DNA of 64,000 nucleotides. Origin: Nocardioides caldifontis. GTDB lineage: Bacteria > Actinomycetota > Actinomycetes > Propionibacteriales > Nocardioidaceae. The DNA lies in assembly GCF_008087345.1 (NCBI RefSeq), contig NZ_VHIB01000008.1, positions 62,001 to 126,000 of the forward strand. Reading direction: 5' to 3'. The notes below the pieces were generated by a model. It ran no database searches. It saw only the letters and a list, made by a program, of their open reading frames with translations, and was not told the origin of the DNA. Shown here in pieces: positions 32,333-35,671 of this stretch. How positions within the stretch are numbered: position 1 is the stretch's first letter; each line of letters begins with the position of its first letter. The position numbers were made by a program, and so were the translations under genes.

Positions 32333-32944
32333 TCAGCTCAGCGAGTCGGGCCGGGTCGCGGAGGCGTCCGCCGGGTCGGCCTCGACGACGGTGTCCGCCT
32401 CGGGGCCGTCGTTGTCCACCACGGCCTTGTCGACGGGCTGGTCGGTGTCGGTCGAGCCGGCGACCTGCTTGCCGATCCGCATCGCCGCTGCGGAGGCCGC
32501 GACCCCCATGCCGAGCCCGGCGAGGGCCCATCCCGGGCCCCACTCCTCACGGCCGAGCGCGGCGTCGACCGAGAGGTCGCCCGGTCCCGCGTCGATGATC
32601 CCGAGGAGGGCGGCGACGAGCACCGCGTTGTACTCCCAACCGCCCTCGGTGTTCCACGGGCCGTTGCTCTGGTGGACCTTGCGGATCGCGGTGACCATCG
32701 TGCCGATGAGGCTGGCGCCGGCGAGCGGGGTCGCCGCACCGGCCACGAGGAGCGCCCCGCCCGCGGTCTCGGCGAGCCCGGCGGCGTACGCGTTGGCCTT
32801 GGGCGGGTGCATCTCGAGGGCGCCCATCATCTGCTCGGTCCCCTCGATGCCCGGGCCGCCGAACCAGCCGAAGAGCTTCTGGGTCCCGTGGCCGATGAAG
32901 AGCCCTCCGATGACCGCGCGTGCGGCGAGCCGTCCCACCTGCAT
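32333..32944 (-). CDS. DoxX-family membrane protein
   Basis: 203 residues. The family start RAVIGGLFIGHGTQKLFGWFGGPGIEGTEQMM is followed by segments LAETAGGALLVAGAATPLAGASLIGTM and YNAVLVAALLGIIDAGPG, giving the usual four membrane helices. The last 40 residues are an acidic, Asp/Ala-rich cytoplasmic tail that most family members lack. DoxX proteins are linked to redox and thiol homeostasis in mycobacteria; the exact role here is unknown. Confidence 0.88.
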   Translation of the reverse strand: MQVGRLAARAVIGGLFIGHGTQKLFGWFGGPGIEGTEQMMGALEMHPPKANAYAAGLAETAGGALLVAGAATPLAGASLIGTMVTAIRKVHQSNGPWNTEGGWEYNAVLVAALLGIIDAGPGDLSVDAALGREEWGPGWALAGLGMGVAASAAAMRIGKQVAGSTDTDQPVDKAVVDNDGPEADTVVEADPADASATRPDSLS

Positions 32945-33018: not shown

Positions 33019-33930
33019 TCAGCCGCCGAACGCGTGGGTCGCGGTGGCGCCGCCGTCGGCGACGAACTCGGCCCCCGTGCTGTAGGAGCTCTCGTCGCTG
33101 GCGAGGAAGACGTAGAGCTGCGCGATGTCCGCCGGGGTGCCGACCCGCTTCAGCGCGACCTTCTGGCCGCCCCAGTGGAGCCCCTCGTCGCCGGTGTAGC
33201 CGCGGATCATGCCGGTGTCGATCATCCCGGGGTGCACCGAGTTCACCCGGATCCCCTTCGGGCCGAGCTCGAGCGCGGCCGCCTTCGTCATCCCGCGGAT
33301 CGCGAACTTGGTGCCGGTGTCGGCCACCAGGGTCGGCATCCCGCCCAGCCCCTCGATCGAGGAGGAGTTCACGATCGAACCGCCGCCGTTCTCGATCATC
33401 ACCGGGGCGACGGTCCGCATCCCGAGGAAGCAGCCGAGCTGGTTGATCCGGAAGAGCCGCTCGAAGTCGGCGGTCGTCGTCTGCGTCAGCTCCGAGAAGT
33501 GCAGCACCCCGGCGTTGTTGACCAGGACGTCGGTCGGCCCGAACGTGTCCACGGCCTCGGCCACGGCCCGGGTCCAGCCCTCCTCGTCGGAGACGTCGAA
33601 TTGGGCTGCCCCGGGCTGCCGGTCAGCGCGGCCTCGGACGAGGTGTTCACGATGCGGCCGTAGACCGGCTCCCCCGGCCTGCTTCGACAGCGCGCGCCAG
33701 TGGGCGGACCGCGTTGCGGCCCAGCAGGAAGTGGCCGCGGAGGTGGATCCGCAGGACCTGGTCCCACTCCTCGTCGCTCATGTCGAACAGCATCCGGTCG
33801 CCGGTGACGCCGGCGTTGTTCACCACGACGTCGAGCCGCCCCTGCCGGTCGACGGCCTCGGCACGACCGAGCCCCGCTCCGGCCCGGGTCACCACCGCGA
33901 CCCGTCCCTCGAGGGACAGTGCTCCGGCAC
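33019..33930 (-). pseudogene. Composite pseudogene made of two short-chain dehydrogenase genes
   Basis: Reading leftward, SDR 'A' begins near 33930 as VVTRAGAGLGRAEA. The first glycine of the TGxxxGxG motif is Arg, and the frame then jumps straight to VDRQGRLDVVVNNAG, about 60 residues missing. After HFLLGRNAV two one-base insertions in C and G runs (near 33710 and 33672) throw it out of frame. It resumes as GEPVYGRIVNTSSEAALTGSPGQPN. At about 33600 it is joined, in another frame, to SDR 'B' from FDVSDEEGW through LVNNAGVLHFSEL to the stop at 33019. The B part alone keeps its tail but lacks the Rossmann start. Confidence 0.8.
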
Positions 33931-33932
33931 GC

Positions 33933-34127
33933 TCACTCCTCGATCGACAGCGCGCTCTTGGGGCAGGCGCTCACGGCCTGCCGGATCCGGGGCTCGTTCT
34001 CCGGAGTGACGTCGTAGGTGTGCACCTGCAGGTAGTCGTCGTCGTCGATCTCGAAGACGTCCGGGGCGAACCCGGTGCAGAGCGCGTTCGACTCGCAGAG
34101 GTCGAAGTCGACCTTCAGCCTCTTCAC
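33933..34127 (-). CDS. 3Fe-4S ferredoxin
   Basis: 64 residues from the GTG at 34127. The three cluster cysteines are in DFDLCESNALCTGFAPDVF and AVSACPKSALS, the CxxxxxC...C pattern of the small actinobacterial 3Fe-4S ferredoxins that feed cytochrome P450s and other oxygenases. Its start overlaps the stop of the flavin-binding-fold gene (GTGA), and the ferredoxin reductase lies two genes upstream. The operon therefore forms an NADPH-to-ferredoxin electron chain. The terminal oxygenase is not in the window. Confidence 0.93.
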   Translation of the reverse strand: MKRLKVDFDLCESNALCTGFAPDVFEIDDDDYLQVHTYDVTPENEPRIRQAVSACPKSALSIEE

Positions 34128-34633
34128 TGCTGACCTCCTCCACCCGGAAGGATGTTCATCTTGCTGTGGTCCCAGCTGGCGACCTTGTCTGGCGTGACGA
34201 GGATCGCCACCCGCTTGAGCACCTGCTTCTCGACGGTGTCCTGGCCCAGCTCGCCGAGCTCGGCGATGTCGGTCACGCCCGCCATCGCGGCGGCGACCCG
34301 CGAGCCGATCTCGCGGATCCGGTCGTGGTCGCGGACGATCTCGGCGGTGCCCTGGATCGAGACCCCGGTGAGCTCGAAGTAGTCGCTGCCGGACTCCACC
34401 AGCACGCTGACCCGCGGGTCCCGCTCGAGGTTCTTCACCTTCTGCGAGGTGGCGTAGGTCCAGAACCCGATGCGCCCCTCGTGGACGACGTAGAAGAGCG
34501 TCGTGAGGTGCGGCATGCCGTCGCGGCCGATGCTCGCGACCTGCACCTTCATCTGGGAGGCGAGGTATGCCTCGACCTCCTCCTCGCTCATCGCGACGGC
34601 ACGGCGCTGCGAGGCGCGCTTGCTGGTGGCCAT
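34124..34633 (-). CDS. PPOX-type split-barrel flavin/F420-binding protein
   Basis: 169 residues. The pyridoxamine 5'-phosphate oxidase-like split barrel is seen in EAYLASQMKVQVASIGRDGMPHLTTLFYVVHEGRIGFWTYATSQKVKNLERDPRVSVLVE. The family includes FMN- and F420-dependent reductases and haem-binding members, and the cofactor cannot be fixed from sequence. It lies between the ferredoxin reductase (8-bp gap) and the ferredoxin (4-bp overlap), so it works in or beside the same redox chain. Confidence 0.85.
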   Translation of the reverse strand: MATSKRASQRRAVAMSEEEVEAYLASQMKVQVASIGRDGMPHLTTLFYVVHEGRIGFWTYATSQKVKNLERDPRVSVLVESGSDYFELTGVSIQGTAEIVRDHDRIREIGSRVAAAMAGVTDIAELGELGQDTVEKQVLKRVAILVTPDKVASWDHSKMNILPGGGGQQ

Positions 34634-34641
34634 CGAGGGAT

Positions 34642-35625
34642 TCAGCCTTCCGAGGAGTGGCCGGGGAACAGATGGGCCGCCGGGTTGATCGCCACCGCCG
34701 CGTTGTTGACCGCGGTCGCGGCCTCGCCGAACCCGACGGCGATGAGCCGCACCTTGCCGGGGTAGTCGGTGACGTCGCCGGCCGCGAAGACCCGCGGCAG
34801 GTTGGTGCGCGTCGTGGAGTCGACGACGATGTGCCGCTTGTGGACCTCGAGCCCCCACTCCTGGATCGGGCCGAGGTCGGCGACGAACCCGAGGGCGGCG
34901 ATCACCGCCTGCGCCTTCACGACGGTGGTCTCGCCGGTCTTCACGTGCTCGATCTCGACCGCCTCGAGCCCGTCGTCACCGACGAGCCGGGCGACGTTGG
35001 CGTTGGTGATCACCTCGGTGTCCCCCGCGAGCACCTTGTCGACGGTGGCCTGGTGGGCCCGGAACGCCTCGCGGCGGTGCACGAGCGTGACCGAGGCGGC
35101 GATCCCCTGGAGGGCGAGCGCCCAGTCGAACGCGCTGTCGCCGCCGCCGACGACCACGACGTCCTTGCCGGCGTACTCCGCCAGCGACGGGACGAAGAAC
35201 GCGACGCCGCCGCCGGTCCACCCCTCCGCCGCCGGCAGCGGGCGCGGGGTGAACTTGCCGATGCCGGCGGTGATGATCACGGCCTTGGCCACGACCGTCG
35301 TGCCGTCGTCGAGCCCGACCCGCACGGGGCCCTCCTCGCCGCCGTCCTCGAGGGTGCGCGCCGTGCGACCGAGGAGGTACGTCGGGTCGGCGGTCGCGGC
35401 CTGGGCAACGAGCCCGGCGACGAGCTCCTTGCCCTTGACCGACGGGAAGCCGGCGACGTCGAGGATCTCCTTCTCCGGGTACATCGCGGTGATCTGGCCG
35501 CCGAGCTCCGGCAGCGAGTCCACGACCGCCACCGAGAGGCCGCGGAACCCTGCGTAGTAGGCCGCGAACAGCCCGACGGGGCCGGCACCGATGACGAGCA
35601 GGTCGACCTCGTGTTCCTCGCTCAC
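34642..35625 (-). CDS. Ferredoxin-NADP+ reductase, thioredoxin-reductase-like type
   Basis: 327 residues. The FAD motif is LLVIGAGPVGLFAAYYAG and the NADPH motif VVVGGGDSAFDWALAL. The C-terminal FAD block is RVFAAGDVTDYPGKVRLIAVGFGEAATAVNNA. There is no CxxC redox pair, which separates it from true thioredoxin reductase and places it with YumC-type ferredoxin reductases. The GTG at 35625 follows GAGGAGGAATCC. It heads the reductase, flavin-protein and ferredoxin operon, with a KstR-like box upstream. Confidence 0.9.
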   Translation of the reverse strand: MSEEHEVDLLVIGAGPVGLFAAYYAGFRGLSVAVVDSLPELGGQITAMYPEKEILDVAGFPSVKGKELVAGLVAQAATADPTYLLGRTARTLEDGGEEGPVRVGLDDGTTVVAKAVIITAGIGKFTPRPLPAAEGWTGGGVAFFVPSLAEYAGKDVVVVGGGDSAFDWALALQGIAASVTLVHRREAFRAHQATVDKVLAGDTEVITNANVARLVGDDGLEAVEIEHVKTGETTVVKAQAVIAALGFVADLGPIQEWGLEVHKRHIVVDSTTRTNLPRVFAAGDVTDYPGKVRLIAVGFGEAATAVNNAAVAINPAAHLFPGHSSEG

Positions 35626-35657: not shown

Positions 35658-35671
35658 TGAAACGCGTTCTG
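35658..35671. promoter_or_regulatory. KstR-like box upstream of the ferredoxin reductase operon
   Basis: TGAAACGCGTTCTG fits TnnAACnnGTTnnA, the core recognised by the cholesterol-catabolism repressor KstR, at every fixed position but the last. It lies 33 bp upstream of the reductase start. The motif is short and could arise by chance. Confidence 0.4.

Follow-up and report, generated by a model that had tools for sequence, protein, structure and literature searches.

The closest described counterparts of the locus studied here come from steroid breakdown. In N. simplex VKM Ac-2033D, hsd4A (KR76_12260) and the gene for a 3-alpha(or 20-beta)-HSD (KR76_12265) are both placed in cluster B and in the KstR regulon, and lithocholate and cholesterol are given as inducers of KR76_12265, in the portion of that study used here (PMC7593942). 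The KstR motif is given as a 14-bp inverted palindrome in the part of PMC3068626 drawn on. For the role of ChsB1/Hsd4A (Rv3502c) we follow the available section of PMC8708139, and Rv3503c is named fdxD in the consulted part of PMC6429209. For M. leprae, the same part of PMC6429209 enters Rv3526 and others as 'Negative', which we read as genes that are absent.

The window, that is, the whole stretch of 64,000 nucleotides of Nocardioides caldifontis DNA analyzed here, contains on its minus strand a locus with the same two enzyme types as cluster B of N. simplex, where the two genes have neighboring locus tags and belong to the KstR regulon (PMC7593942, in the portion used). Whereas the N. simplex pair is assigned to steroid breakdown and induced according to that portion of the paper (PMC7593942), the window copy is a broken chimera. 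From annotation and adjacency, KR76_12260 and KR76_12265 would be the very orthologs of the two genes that gave rise to it. Below, SDR A and SDR B denote the first and the second short-chain dehydrogenase gene downstream of the ferredoxin gene, and the own genome is that of N. caldifontis; the locus comes from one assembly of one strain of the species (4.8 Mb in 33 contigs, 99.65% complete). In the order of transcription, the features of the locus are the following.

35658 to 35671, minus strand: putative degraded KstR-type operator, CAGAACGCGTTTCA, 4 mismatches; relatives have TAGAACACGTTCTA or near variants
34642 to 35625, minus strand: gene of a thioredoxin-reductase-like flavoprotein, taken as ferredoxin-NAD(P) reductase (FNR, a name that we infer); first gene of the operon; intact
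34124 to 34591, minus strand: PPOX-class gene (pyridoxamine 5'-phosphate oxidase-like, F420 type); intact
33933 to 34127, minus strand: ferredoxin gene, single-cluster, FdxD-like; intact
33601 to 33936, minus strand: remains of SDR A (predicted hsd4A/ChsB1 type, PRK07792), ending at ...SPGQPN; intact homologs in relatives
33589 to 33608, minus strand: joint of A and B (last base of A about 33601, first base of B about 33600), from alignment with six relatives
33019 to 33600, minus strand: SDR B, last 193 codons and stop (predicted 3-alpha,20-beta-HSD / Rv2002 type); open frame, N-terminal cofactor part missing

The label FdxD for the ferredoxin is our assumption. Downstream of the chimera, a gene at window positions 32333-32944 on the minus strand has a weak, below-cut-off match to the HvfX family.

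The initial annotation had described a pseudogene welded from two different SDRs; we confirm the observation and find its interpretation supported. Reading from 33936 to 33019 on the minus strand (the annotation gave no strand), the remains of A pass into the last three quarters of B, and intact tandem copies of A and B are present in all six relatives read. The switch lies at 33601/33600, give or take a few bases, and the proposed position of about 33600 was exact, but what follows it is three quarters of B (193 of about 251 residues) and not its second half. The window keeps under half of SDR A. A GTG at 33936 overlaps the ferredoxin stop and is followed by 15 codons and then a stop (33891-33889), while the frame of A upstream of the cofactor motif contains no ATG, GTG or TTG. 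In the cofactor motif itself (33881-33892) the first glycine has been replaced by arginine, VTRAGAGLG here against VTGAGAGLG in relatives, as had been noted before; the position is glycine in 54 of 54 relatives. An in-frame deletion inside A had also been recognized, although its size is 53 codons (159 nt, joint at 33848-33862) when measured against each of the four relatives counted, and not about 60 residues. Further downstream, A carries two net +1 changes, at 33697-33715 and 33663-33681. These had been reported as one-base insertions in homopolymers, a description that clearly fits only the second, in a run of five G, since the first adjoins a run of three C. Each SDR does bring its own NNAG motif, at 33809-33823 and 33508-33522, so that the chimera contains two distinct ones. 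The B part, which begins at about residue 59, keeps the latter motif and lacks the TGxxxGxG cofactor motif, and its catalytic tyrosine has become aspartate (DxxxK for YxxxK, within 33307-33327); tyrosine and lysine are present in 54 of 54 relatives with ferredoxin-A-B loci, and the tyrosine also in all of the best 80 B loci listed. The out-of-frame start of A and the loss of the tyrosine in B are additions to what had been described.

Judged from their sequences, A is of the Hsd4A/ChsB1 type and B of the 3-alpha,20-beta-HSD type. The intact A of a relative scores 462 bits against the curated NCBIfam cut-off of 414 for PRK07792, where the window fragment, at 82 bits, stays below. Among the structures matched by the relatives' A, PDB 7LG9/7LGB, which we take to be ChsB1 (Rv3502c), ranks second.

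Searching 58 related genomes with the ferredoxin yielded, apart from the own-genome copy, six close matches with identities of 56-72%. In all six (G002, G003, G004, G010, G017 and G032) the order FNR - (PPOX) - ferredoxin - A - B is found on one strand with full open frames, the lengths being about 300 aa (A) and about 251 aa (B); PPOX lies between FNR and ferredoxin in four of them and is missing from that place in G017 and G032. The initial annotation had proposed to look for relatives in which two SDR genes stand in tandem behind the ferredoxin gene; both genes are there in six of the six relatives read. The order FNR-PPOX-ferredoxin-A-B is also found in a Pimelobacter simplex genome (L097). 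A follows the ferredoxin gene in the relatives just as Rv3502c follows Rv3503c, an adjacency that we take from the gene numbers in the consulted part of PMC6429209. When genomes were scanned with a profile of B, the best 80 B loci being retained, an A-type gene was found upstream on the same strand in 66, ferredoxin and A in 49, and FNR, ferredoxin and A in 23. About 1.5 kb separates A from B in 13 of 55 ferredoxin-A-B loci (the six relatives included); in the two such loci that were read, L088 and L084, the spacer holds by eye an aldehyde-dehydrogenase-like gene. A further relative of B, in Saccharomonospora sp. CUA-673 (L134:4815-5575), gave a partial alignment over a length not divisible by three, and is perhaps another broken copy.

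The main piece of A is 43-62% identical to its counterparts in the six relatives, deletion gap included, and the B part 61-74%, the next best own-genome match to B being 39% identical. Together with the tandem copies in six of six relatives, these values exclude a chance resemblance. Between A and B, 593-648 nt are missing in comparison with the six relatives. This deletion of about 0.6 kb connects A, at about its residue 160, with B, at about its residue 59, in agreement with the earlier proposal of a deletion between neighboring SDR genes. By eye, the relatives' sequence suggests short shared words at the joints, GCCCA-like at the A-B joint and GGCCG-like at the internal joint of A. As the sequences show, the ancestral order was FNR - PPOX - ferredoxin - A - B, and a deletion between A and B gave rise to the present arrangement.

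The three upstream genes have fared differently from the two dehydrogenases. Counting changes at sites invariant in 28 other operons (14 for PPOX), we find 0 in FNR (mean of the others 0.79), 0 in PPOX (0.93, n=14) and 0 in the ferredoxin (0.07), in line with the earlier impression of a redox operon that still looks intact, and 2 in the pieces of A (mean 0.39), a number that 2 of the 28 others reach. A wider set of 54 sequences with a 98% threshold again gives 2 changes in A, reached by 1 of 54. Both sets leave out L078, a duplicate of L055 (same 676,859-base contig).

Upstream of the operon we looked for an operator of the KstR type, using as reference word TAGAACACGTTCTA, read from three of the relatives' own loci. 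In the relatives such a site stands before FNR in 28 of the 28 loci with enough upstream sequence (27 distinct genomes, as L055 and L078 are the same; L054 was excluded for too little upstream sequence), at -10 to -190 and with 0-3 mismatches (0 in 5 loci, 1 in 8, 2 in 14 and 3 in 1), and we presume that KstR binds it. The best site of the window, CAGAACGCGTTTCA at -46, has 4 mismatches and falls outside this range, a score that 8% of random segments reach, which is not far off the 0-7% for relatives with 2 mismatches. By this comparison the operator before the window operon is degraded. On the scale of whole genomes, operator-like sites and matches to the reversed pattern number 13 and 15 in the own genome, 3 and 9 in G001, 24 and 15 in G002, 34 and 8 in G003, and 21 and 6 in G004 (at most 2 mismatches, both strands; the word is a near-palindrome, so some sites are counted twice). 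The own genome still has two sites that match the operator exactly. As a separate observation, AACNNGTT occurs 8 times in the window where shuffling leads one to expect 2.5 (8 is reached in 0 of 100 shuffles), and of these sites the one at 35661 was related to the operon.

By all signs, the FNR-PPOX-ferredoxin-A-B operon of the relatives belongs to sterol/steroid catabolism. In 341 genomes of the family, scored for A at E<=1e-60 and for the C-terminal domain of KshA (KshA_C) at E<=1e-40, A was found in 152; A and KshA occur together in 147, A only in 5, KshA only in 3 and neither in 186, that is, with 8 discordant genomes (Fisher P about 4e-86, shared ancestry not corrected for). Three of the five A-only genomes have weak matches (G062, G073 and G102; E 1e-63 to 1e-66) that are probably other SDRs, and the association was tabulated with and without them; the other two are 71-75% complete, and the three KshA-only genomes 81-87%.

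In the own genome, no SDR A was found at E<=1e-60 (six best candidates scored), nor did an intact B turn up, and KshA_C has no match at E<=1e-40. The congeners G002, G003 and G004 have KshA_C and an intact A-B pair. For a FadE-like gene that adjoins KshA in G002, identity is 84-87% with its counterparts in G003 and G004 and no higher than 36% with any match in the own genome. An IpdF-type gene (PRK07831, which we take to be IpdF) was not found in the own genome and is present among the congeners in G002 and G003 only (G004, 82% complete, is without it). A search of the own genome for FadD17/CasI also found no match of that type, but this is an imperfect marker, with matches under the family cut-off in G003 and G004 and none in G002 despite its KshA and A-B. 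P450 matches do not discriminate (own genome 13, G003 16, G002 10, G001 3, G004 11), and an SDR- and P450-rich stretch of the own genome (C1:920-1001 kb) gave no clear sterol cluster in four pieces (L177, L178, L170 and L179), with three proteins scanned. The pathway markers searched, namely KshA, the adjoining FadE, FadD17/CasI, IpdF and IpdE2, are on these sequence matches absent, distant or broken in the own genome. Another genome of the genus, G001, has no KshA, ferredoxin or A match and no close B; with its few operator-like sites it perhaps shows the same loss at a more advanced stage, or else a separate loss.

Steroid genes are also found broken at other places. We compared the steroid-gene regions of G002 and G003 with two stretches of the own contig C3, listing own matches of at least 45% identity. 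Of KshB, named from its position beside KshA and from its PaaE-like family, the last 49 of 362 residues are left (80% identical, C3:264782-264928), flanked by a full-length neighbor gene (99% covered) on one side and a quinone-oxidoreductase-like gene (100% covered) on the other. From this oxidoreductase to the corresponding KshB residue the distance is about 5.5 kb in G002, where two acyl-CoA-dehydrogenase-like genes, KshA and most of KshB lie in between, against about 0.4 kb here. EchA19, whose copy in G002 passes the curated cut-off, is split across two frames (C3:261847-262628). The thiolase (PRK07801) is 67% covered with a frame change near its end, an IpdE2-like gene (family match under cut-off) 71% covered, and a MaoC-like gene (so called by eye, no family match) 29% covered in two frames, and a nitronate-monooxygenase-like gene (labeled by eye, its family match being FabK-like) is a 43-residue stub. 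In the regions of the second congener, used as a control, the thiolase, the IpdE2-like gene and KshB reach coverages of 93-100%. The compared regions of that congener hold no good counterpart of EchA19, the MaoC-like gene or the nitronate-monooxygenase-like gene, so the control covers the former three.

Three further loci of the own genome may be noted on their own account. At C3:259110 onward (L183:711-1505), an exact TAGAACACGTTCTA is followed after 86 bases by a truncated C-terminal piece of a FadD8-like gene, a possible relic of the regulon. Of a lipid-transfer thiolase (PRK06059), the C-terminal 160 residues are found at C4:563.6-565.2 kb (L186:3647-5212), about 1 kb from an operator-like site with one mismatch. 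A GMC-family oxidoreductase (choline-dehydrogenase-like) at C1:1032.1-1033.6 kb (L187:3576-5064), whose pieces alternate between two frames, adjoins another one-mismatch operator-like site.

We are highly confident that an ancestral FNR - PPOX - ferredoxin - A - B operon lost its dehydrogenase function through the A-B deletion and further lesions, with no functional dehydrogenase left, and that the chimera is one relic of a lost sterol catabolism. The loss of the pathway follows from the missing KshA, the missing ortholog of the adjoining FadE and the missing FadD17/CasI- and IpdF-type matches, together with the stubs and broken copies of KshB, EchA19, the thiolase, the IpdE2-like gene and others. 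The chimera is most likely one of the remains of a recently dismantled KstR sterol regulon whose electron-transfer operon was left standing, and the stubs of other steroid genes indicate that the own lineage lost steroid degradation recently. The course of events reads as follows. The ancestor had SDR A and SDR B behind FNR, PPOX and ferredoxin, as in the relatives, and a deletion of ~0.6 kb fused A, at about its residue 160, with B, at about its residue 59. The further lesions (the 53-codon deletion, the frame changes, the out-of-frame start, Gly to Arg and Tyr to Asp) add to this. We suggest that, once the pathway had become useless, small deletions between short chance matches (GCCCA-like, GGCCG-like) built up neutrally. 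FNR, PPOX and ferredoxin are either the next genes to decay or retained because another partner uses them.

The second of these fates can be extended into a fuller scenario, in which the regulon is in mid-dismantling by many small deletions, as seen in stubs and orphan operators, and FNR-PPOX-ferredoxin remains constrained, freed from KstR by the decay of its operator and now serving another oxygenase. We hold this scenario as a whole to be rather doubtful.

That the SDR B remnant gives a novel protein, truncated yet functional (for example a dimerization partner or a regulator) and translated from a GTG at 33564, is very improbable. The open frame from that GTG has 181 codons with a GC3 of 0.99, and dN/dS is about 0.4, or 0.34-0.48 against three congeners where three intact pairs give 0.35-0.43. 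Yet such a protein would be without the N-terminal NAD(P)-binding part and without the catalytic tyrosine, on which grounds we reject it, and long chance frames are common at this base composition (82 ORFs of at least 60 aa over 14 kb, many overlapping). At the sites invariant in the 28 relatives B has 5 changes, a number that 0 of the 28 others reach (mean 0.50, max 4); this count masks the first 58 positions because the match ran past the joint, and unmasked it is 6. With the 54-sequence set, however, only one change remains, the catalytic Tyr to Asp, and 15 of the 54 others have at least one. The decay of B is weakly marked in substitutions, and dN/dS hardly separates it from the intact pairs, two points that count against our main reading. 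Since the remnant still looks like a coding gene in GC3 and dN/dS, we take the inactivation to be recent.

An artifact of assembly or sequencing, in which intact A and B were collapsed by misassembly and homopolymer errors added to this, is in our view marginally less credible still. The assembly is in 33 contigs, and one of the net +1 changes sits in a run of five G, but an artifact would need two separate deletions as well as missense changes at the cofactor glycine and the catalytic tyrosine. At the protein level intact A and B share only 33% identity, so a collapse is unlikely, and internal stops are absent from the 42 SDR-family matches listed for the own genome. Other places in the genome hold truncated genes of this pathway, and with several independent lesions here and relics elsewhere we reject this explanation. 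A true fusion giving a working chimeric enzyme, with frameshifting to bridge the frame changes, has next to no probability: the pieces of both genes are in the correct order, but given that the start is out of frame, that the frame changes three times or more and that the NNAG region is duplicated, a single folded Rossmann enzyme is implausible, no such fusion is seen in any of the six relatives read, and the frame changes and the lack of a start led us to reject it.

Gene decay in M. leprae is general and genome-wide. As far as the consulted part of the published table goes, M. leprae and the own genome are alike in that the same catabolic regulon is eroded, kshA included. However, M. leprae is a host-bound pathogen, whereas the own genome has 4.8 Mb and most of its compared non-steroid syntenic neighbors are full-length or nearly so. 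In a title-level search of the open-licence literature we found no published case of a broken hsd4A or of the loss of a steroid pathway in the family.

Pseudogenes that arise by deletion between neighboring genes are ordinary, and the value of this one lies in its context of steroid loss. Together, the chimera, the stubs of KshB, EchA19, the thiolase and other genes, and the decayed operator map an apparent recent loss of steroid degradation in an actinobacterium with a large genome, whose congeners keep the genes. The near-perfect co-occurrence of A with KshA and the KstR-type operator tie the FNR-PPOX-ferredoxin operon to sterol catabolism, and make it a candidate for the chain that passes electrons to a steroid oxygenase.
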